Below are positions 24,615 to 28,270 of a DNA stretch of 64,000 bases, piece after piece. Position 1 is the stretch's first letter. Every line of letters begins with the position of its first letter. The stretch is from Desulfuromonadales bacterium. Its GTDB lineage: Bacteria > Desulfobacterota > Desulfuromonadia > Geobacterales > Pseudopelobacteraceae. Location of the stretch: contig JACAAY010000003.1 of NCBI GenBank assembly GCA_013377095.1, positions 1 to 64,000 of the forward strand, read 5' to 3'. The translations under genes and the position numbers were made by a program. The notes below the pieces were generated by a model that worked only from the letters and a program-made list of their open reading frames with translations, ran no database searches and was not told where the DNA came from.

Positions 24615-24683
24615 TTTTCCCGTTGACAGCGGTCGCATTGCCCCGTACCATGTTGCAAAATAAACACACATTCAGGCAGCTTT

Positions 24684-24769
24684 AGGATAGACGATACTAC
24701 TAAACCATCCGCAAGGATGGGACGGAAAGCCCACGGGTCTTCACAAGACAGCCGGGTCGCCAAACTATC
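24684..24769 (+). ncRNA. GEMM-I riboswitch aptamer, G20A type (probably 3',3'-cGAMP)
   Basis: All core parts of the GEMM-I cyclic dinucleotide aptamer are visible. P1 is GATAG (24686-24690) with CTATC (24765-24769). AAACC leads into a P2 hairpin CCATCC-GCAA-GGATGG with a GNRA tetraloop. The core GGGACGGAAAGCC follows, then a P3 arm carrying GGGTCTT and AAGACAGCC. By eye, the base at the position of Vc2 G20 is A (24699), while A47 is kept (24726). G20A marks the cGAMP-binding subclass common in Geobacter, though promiscuous or c-di-GMP binding is possible. Confidence 0.88.
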
Positions 24770-24803
24770 ACGCACCATGATAGCTGGAGACCCGGCTTTT
24801 TTT
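24750..24803 (+). terminator. riboswitch-controlled intrinsic terminator
   Basis: AGCCGGGTC (24750-24758), itself part of the aptamer, pairs with GACCCGGCT (24789-24797) ahead of seven T. An inner stem CTATCA (24765-24770) with TGATAG (24778-24783) competes with aptamer helix P1. Ligand binding should therefore block termination, an ON switch. Confidence 0.85.
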
Positions 24804-24846
24804 GTTTCAGCTCCGTCGCTGCCTTTATCCGCTAACAGGAGAATTC

Positions 24847-25698
24847 ATGAGAATAAGCAAAAAAGTTCAAGACATGGCGGTATTTATAGAGTTTCTCACC
24901 GGGGCCGGCCTGGCAATTTTCTTTCACTGGGTACTCCATTACCCGGAGGCGGCCTACACTATCTTTGGCATCGGCATCCTGCTCGCCCTGGCAACCTATC
25001 TGCTCAGGGAGGATATGGAGCGAAATCACCTTGATGTGACAGCAAAATACGAGCAGTCACATGAGATCACCTTTGCCATGGCCGGAATCAGCGACCTGGA
25101 ATGCCATGCAAAGGCACTGGAGGTTCTGGCCAGCGCCAAGCGTACCATTGCCATGCTGCAACAGGGCTTTATCCCGCTTGACGAGACCGAGTTCTATCTG
25201 GAAAGCGCCAAGAGTTCCGATCTGGCCGTGCAACGCATCAAAACCGTCTGCCCGTTGACAACCGGCTGGCAAACCCGTGGAGCGCTGGTTAACCTCTACC
25301 AGTCCAACCTGCGCGCTCTCGTCAAGGGTGTGGCCATTACCAGGATCTTTGTCATTCACCGCGATGCCCTTACCGACCCCGACGCCAGGAAAATTCTGCT
25401 CACCCACTTCGGAGACGGTTTTGATGTCCGTATCGCCTTCCGTGATGAATGCCCGGCTCCCAGCGAGATCAGCGACCGGGACACCACCAGTTCCTTCGAT
25501 TTTGCCATTTACGATGATCACCTGGCCAGCGAGGTATTTCCCCAGCAGGGCAAATTCTTCGGTCGAAAAACCACGCTTGCGTCCAATGTGGACAGGCTAC
25601 TTCATATGTATGAACTGATTGAACACAGTTCCCATGTGCTTACCGTTGAGGAGGACAGGATCGTTCTGGCATCCGAAGCCTACAAACTGGCGGCCTGA
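24847..25698 (+). CDS. riboswitch-controlled membrane protein of unknown function
   Basis: A 283-residue protein starting at an ATG with AGGAG about five bases upstream. Two hydrophobic helices (about 10-28 and 33-51) form a membrane hairpin, followed by a soluble domain of some 230 residues, probably cytosolic. I do not recognise the domain. A late segment, SSFDFAIYDDHLASEVF then GKFFGRKT, looks like a conserved core. The only gene between the riboswitch and pckA, it is very likely expressed when cyclic dinucleotide is high. A role in surface attachment or electron transfer would be speculation. Confidence 0.75.
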   Translation: MRISKKVQDMAVFIEFLTGAGLAIFFHWVLHYPEAAYTIFGIGILLALATYLLREDMERNHLDVTAKYEQSHEITFAMAGISDLECHAKALEVLASAKRTIAMLQQGFIPLDETEFYLESAKSSDLAVQRIKTVCPLTTGWQTRGALVNLYQSNLRALVKGVAITRIFVIHRDALTDPDARKILLTHFGDGFDVRIAFRDECPAPSEISDRDTTSSFDFAIYDDHLASEVFPQQGKFFGRKTTLASNVDRLLHMYELIEHSSHVLTVEEDRIVLASEAYKLAA

Positions 25699-27866: not shown

Positions 27867-28199
27867 TTAGTGATGAAACCGTCCCTTACGCTCCCGATGG
27901 GCGGGAGTCGGCGATTTGTGGCACTCAAAACAGCGTAACTCCTCGACCTTCTTCAATTCGATCGGAGAAGAGTGCTTATTTTGCTGCGACTGGTTGTATT
28001 CAGGGGTCTGGAACGCCAGGTTAGTGCGTTCATCAGCCACGTTGGCCGGCTGATAGGCTACCTGCCAGTTAGTGCCAATCGCCACGGTATGGCACTGGTC
28101 ACACCCCCCCGGGGGTGGAATGCTTTTCCAGGAGGTAAACATCGTACAGCCTCCCAGACCGGCAGCAACAGCAAGAACCAACAGCAAGACAGACTTCAT
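27867..28199 (-). CDS. small dihaem c-type cytochrome lipoprotein
   Basis: A 110-residue exported protein. The signal peptide ends in a lipobox-like LGGC. Two haem-binding motifs, CDQCH (near residue 33) and CFECH (near 93), are present, and the His-rich tail could give distal ligands. GGAG lies just before the ATG. It is likely anchored in the membrane facing the periplasm and involved in electron transfer. It sits alone between tatD upstream and the Thr-repeat lipoprotein downstream on the same strand. I cannot name an orthologue. Confidence 0.8.
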   Translation of the reverse strand: MKSVLLLVLAVAAGLGGCTMFTSWKSIPPPGGCDQCHTVAIGTNWQVAYQPANVADERTNLAFQTPEYNQSQQNKHSSPIELKKVEELRCFECHKSPTPAHRERKGRFHH

Positions 28200-28270
28200 A
28201 TACGCTCCAACCTGACCCGAAGTGATGACGGTGTGGAACTGTAGCACAACTCAGTAAAAAAAGACAACAT

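Follow-up and report, generated by a model that had tools for sequence, protein, structure and literature searches.

A leader RNA in front of an uncharacterised membrane protein gene raises two questions: which second messenger it reads, and whether binding turns the gene on or off. This leader lies at positions 24684–24803 of the window, that is, the whole 64,000-nucleotide stretch of DNA analysed here. In a preliminary description a GEMM riboswitch was placed at these positions, with a pocket of the type that recognises 3',3'-cGAMP and a built-in terminator. The most satisfactory explanation, which we hold with considerable confidence, is that the locus is a GEMM-Ib ON-switch that would have 3',3'-cGAMP, rather than c-di-GMP, as its ligand and would control the gene of a membrane protein with a pseudo-phospholipase D (PLD) domain.

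Identity of the Aptamer

When the 64-kb window was scanned against all Rfam families, the sole match obtained was RF01051 (c-di-GMP-I, also GEMM-I), at 24689–24764 of the forward strand, with 49.7 bits against a curated gathering score of 35 and E = 1e-06 for the window. The covariance-model search that had been suggested as a check of the preliminary description thus places the locus in this family, as an aptamer of the A20 type. In the cmscan alignment P1, a GNRA-capped P2 and P3 are arranged around a three-way junction, and P1 and P2 also appear in the folds; these elements, together with the core (GGGACGGAAAGCC), had been located correctly beforehand. P1 is formed by GATAG (24686–24690) and CTATC (24765–24769), strands which pair as GAUAG and CUAUC in transcripts ending at 24771–24780. 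P2 (24700–24725), which is CCAUCC-GCAA-GGAUGG, carries the GNRA loop GCAA and ends at its bottom in the pairs C24700-G24725 and U24701-G24724. A GNRA loop is present in all 13 A20 switches of the same genome that have these lower P2 pairs.

The possibility of a chance match, or of an ordinary terminator, is ruled out by the Rfam score, by the z-score of the fold and by the conservation of P1 (see below). Since every computational test available agrees, the locus is a genuine GEMM-Ib riboswitch. Its class and mechanism are already known, and it adds one more example of the Geobacter-type switch. Its family and overall fold are those of the Vc2 c-di-GMP-I riboswitch, from which it differs in having A instead of G at position 20, and C-G and U-G instead of G-C and C-G at the bottom of P2.

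Terminator and Switching

The 123-nt leader folds with -47.0 kcal/mol (z = -5.8), and none of 200 shuffled sequences was as stable. In this full-leader fold, a long hairpin runs from AGCCGGGUC (24750–24758) to GACCCGGCU (24789–24797), ahead of a U tract, whereas a transcript ending at 24772 folds instead as P1 (GAUAG/CUAUC) and P2. The intrinsic terminator extends over 24750–24804 of the forward strand. Its 5' side consists of the 3' strands of P3 (AGCCGGGUC) and P1 (CUAUC), and its 3' side of a second GAUAG (24779–24783) followed by GACCCGGCU; in DNA letters, the stem is AGCCGGGTC (24750–24758) with GACCCGGCT (24789–24797), and then a T run. The built-in terminator described previously is therefore real. 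It had also been claimed that GATAG and a second aptamer strand were used or contested by the terminator stem. CTATC is contested; the upstream GATAG is not used, the terminator partner of CTATC being the copy at 24779–24783.

Stepped folds, which ignore ligand, tertiary contacts and kinetics, give P1 a probability of 0.93–0.96 for 3' ends between 24771 and 24780, and of 0.06 at 24785, where CUAUC has been captured by the second GAUAG; at 24794 the lower stem of the terminator forms in turn. Both the folds and the comparative alignment make terminator and aptamer mutually exclusive, in keeping with the ON-switch design formerly put forward, although the response to a ligand is deduced here from the structure. 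Taking into account that the terminator takes the 3' strands of P3 and P1, a ligand holding P1 should prevent termination and leave the gene on; the locus should thus act as a transcriptional ON-switch.

The following sequence of events is proposed. P1, P2 and P3 would form first in the nascent leader, and 3',3'-cGAMP would bind at the junction, contacting A24699, A24726 and a ligand-pairing C, most likely C24760. With cGAMP bound, P1 would be held, CUAUC and AGCCGGGUC would stay in the aptamer, and the polymerase would continue into the pseudo-PLD gene. If the ligand is absent, the downstream GAUAG would invade P1 once transcription has passed about 24785, and the stem between AGCCGGGUC and GACCCGGCU would close, so that C24760 would be sequestered and transcription would end at the U tract. 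C24760, assigned by position as the most likely equivalent of the ligand-pairing C75, is paired in the terminator fold. In the pilM switch of Geobacter metallireducens, ligand binding is confined to a 25-nt window and is lost once the terminator sequesters C75 (PMC9262584). The two switches share their ON logic, measured for pilM (PMC9262584) and computed here, and a terminator that draws away both the 3' strand of P1 and the C that pairs with the ligand. The pgcA GEMM-Ib of G. sulfurreducens belongs to the same subclass and has the same type of terminator (PMC6456294); pgcA, however, encodes a cytochrome, and the gene considered here an uncharacterised membrane protein.

A candidate sigma-70-type promoter, TTGACA-17-TACCAT (24623–24651, forward strand; 10 of 12 consensus matches), lies just past the ftsK stop codon. 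It is suggestive but weak by itself, 0.6 such sites being expected by chance in the region.

Conservation of the Design

P1 was scored as four base pairs in fixed columns for 37 A20 switches, drawn from the present genome and from others. Pairing is found in 135 of 148 cells (91%), compared with 25–54% when the partner is slid. One member of the set, own_L029, has changed P1 from GAUA/UAUC to GGUA/UACC, keeping the pairing, and its terminator copy has changed along with it. Across the 32 sequences that were tabulated, this P3/P1 3' strand also takes part in a strong hairpin ahead of the U tract.

The 5.26-Mb assembly that contains the window gives 41 RF01051 matches, with 5.56% contamination and some near-identical copies. 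When the matches are sorted by the base at the G20 position and by the lower bases of P2, A20 is accompanied by C and U (C-G/U-G pairs) in 13, by Vc2-like G and C in four and by C and C in one. All the others are G20 switches, which thus occur separately in the same genome. The four A20 switches with Vc2-type G-C/C-G lower pairs (L001, L012, L015 and L016) differ from the Geobacter GEMM-Ib pattern. With 41 GEMM-I and 45 GGDEF matches, this genome has the most GEMMs among the 117 compared; given the contamination and the near-identical copies, this is not accepted as a record.

The Ligand Pocket

In the cmscan alignment A24699 stands at model position 11, which is the equivalent of Vc2 G20, and A24726 corresponds to Vc2 A47. 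An A at the first of these positions and a conserved A47 had been read from the letters alone, and the alignment bears out both. A24699 is A14 in the numbering of the Gm cGAMP riboswitch (PMC6274999). Model positions 12 and 13 are C24700 and U24701, with G24725 and G24724 as partners; the A at the G20 position and the resulting C-G and U-G pairs at the bottom of P2 are shared with the pilM GEMM-Ib of G. metallireducens (PMC9262584) and with the crystallised Gm 3',3'-cGAMP aptamer, as are the register of J1/2 and the GNRA-capped P2.

In the Gm structure the ligand is contacted by G8, A9, A11, A12, A14, C15, G40, A41, A42 and C75 (PMC6274999). Mapped by register (window position = Gm + 24685), all the contacts that can be placed by position are kept except A12 (Vc2 A18), which is replaced by C24697. 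This exception, besides the gene controlled, distinguishes the locus from the pilM and Gm aptamers, and was overlooked in the preliminary description; its assignment of the pocket to the cGAMP-type GEMM-Ib stands as regards A20, A47 and the pilM-type lower P2 pairs. An A at Gm position 12 is not known to be a defining feature of GEMM-Ib. Across 138 genomes of the order, 844 A20-type switches have A in 758 cases, C in 86 and G or T in none, the C variant recurring in 56 of the genomes. C24697 is therefore not treated as disqualifying. As C is found in 10% of the A20 switches and, at a similar rate, in three of the 44 with the matching G20 pattern (A 40, C 3, T 1), the idea that it marks the cGAMP subclass alone is not supported. 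Judging from these sequences, Gm position 12 is a recurrent variant position and not a defining feature. Both A and C offer a ring-nitrogen acceptor beside an amino donor; this shared property would account for the restriction to these two bases.

cGAMP or c-di-GMP

The same ON-switch could also have c-di-GMP as its natural ligand, or answer to both c-di-GMP and cGAMP. Such a reading would accommodate the fact that most of the 45 GGDEF matches in the genome have the canonical Asp at the specificity site, and that in the related Cd1 riboswitch replacing G11, the equivalent of G20, by A or C has no large effect on binding (PMC9262584); moreover, the pocket carries the A12-to-C change, which may affect affinity or selectivity. 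However, the combination of A20 with C-G and U-G bottom pairs of P2 is that of pilM, the preference of published Geobacter GEMM-Ib RNAs for cGAMP over c-di-GMP is about 1200-fold (PMC6456294) to 1600-fold (PMC8835794), and the genome has separate G20 switches. We consider this alternative unlikely, and a cGAMP-responsive GEMM-Ib switch the better account.

The published signature of Hypr GGDEF proteins is Ser or Thr at the specificity position with GGDE[F/Y]. In this genome a REC-GGDEF protein combines Ser at this position with a GGDEY motif. Its best PDB match is 6d9m (217.8 bits, versus 147.9 for PleD), entitled as a response-receiver GGDEF/GAF protein fused to endolysin. We take 6d9m to be GmGacA, since GacA of G. 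metallireducens has been published as a T4-lysozyme fusion and the title fits it. The same genome possesses a candidate GacA-like cGAMP synthase, to which an HDOD-GGDEF protein with Ser and a membrane GGDEF protein with Thr may be added as further Hypr candidates.

Genes lying behind A20 switches in this genome encode PilM, an L,D-transpeptidase with a SPOR domain (two switches in tandem), a PilZ protein, an NHL-repeat protein and fn3 proteins. Deletion of gacA in G. sulfurreducens lowers expression of the pilM and transpeptidase operons (PMC6456294), and fn3 genes linked to GEMM have been reported in G. bemidjiensis (PMC2996986). The pilM, L,D-transpeptidase and fn3 targets therefore match gene types published as controlled by cGAMP or GEMM.

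The Controlled Gene and Its Homologues

The gene downstream of the switch (24847–25698, forward strand) encodes a 283-aa protein with no sequence match in Pfam, NCBIfam or the PDB. Its AlphaFold model has a mean pLDDT of 72, with values of 80–94 over most of residues 120–200 and much of 221–270, and low values in the first 90 residues. The N-terminal helices of the model, at residues 2–29 and 33–54, are predicted to be membrane helices, and the domain at about 105–276 matches proteins of the PLD fold, Nuc/NucT among them (VIA Z 14.8–15.3; Foldseek E 2e-06). The HxKxxxxD (HKD) motif is found in none of 30 homologues, including this protein's PLD-like domain, so catalysis is unlikely and an active phospholipase D is not supported. 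We would guess, by analogy with the PLD-fold domain of TrmB, at a sensing or scaffolding role.

A search of 141 genomes of the order finds the controlled gene in 54. Of the 30 loci with the best matches, 27, among them that of the window, carry an A20 GEMM directly upstream, although these loci are related and do not represent 27 independent events. All 27 GEMMs have GG at positions 45–46 and A47, and their sequences read x-A-C-Y. A second set of loci, taken from named genomes and sharing some members with the first, has an A20 GEMM upstream in 19 of the 31 loci with upstream DNA. In the window the neighbours are ftsK and pckA; in G. argillaceus the gene is found between htpG and a GEMM-preceded gene for a multi-CxxCH cytochrome, and linkage to ftsK and pckA is consequently not general. 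The switch accompanies the controlled gene even where the neighbours differ.

The reverse strand of the window encodes, at 27867–28247, a small protein predicted to be a lipoprotein, with two CxxCH motifs for haem binding. Beside homologues of the controlled gene, a second GEMM is A20 in some genomes and G20 in others, in an otherwise similar context (G074:C1:1418097-1418132 and G093:C41:501-536 versus L054/L056 3541-3617 and G073/G083), a difference that may reflect a natural exchange of ligand at one site.

At the homologue L067, the GEMM upstream of 908 is apparently half lost: its terminator and the 3' strands of P3 and P1 remain, and no 5' half of the aptamer can be recognised. This case, and the deviation of one pocket nucleotide, would fit a reading of the window's locus as a degenerate relic that keeps a working terminator and no longer responds to ligand. 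We regard it as highly improbable, considering that the Rfam score is far over the gathering threshold, that the other mapped contacts are kept, that the competition between P1 and the terminator is balanced, and that the pocket change is the recurrent C, never G or T.

Biological Significance

The natural variation of the A20 pocket at Gm position 12 is recurrent, confined to A and C with no case of G or U, and directly testable. A bolder proposal, tentative and rather doubtful at present, is that GEMM-Ib RNAs with C at position 12 are a tuned sub-variant with altered affinity or selectivity for cGAMP, and that together with the A12 forms they control an undescribed, order-wide cGAMP effector, the membrane protein with a degenerate PLD-like domain. 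What the results offer is a connection, recurring across the bacterial order, between an orphan membrane protein and the cGAMP regulon; the 283-aa protein thereby becomes a concrete candidate for an effector of cGAMP signalling in bacteria that reduce metals.
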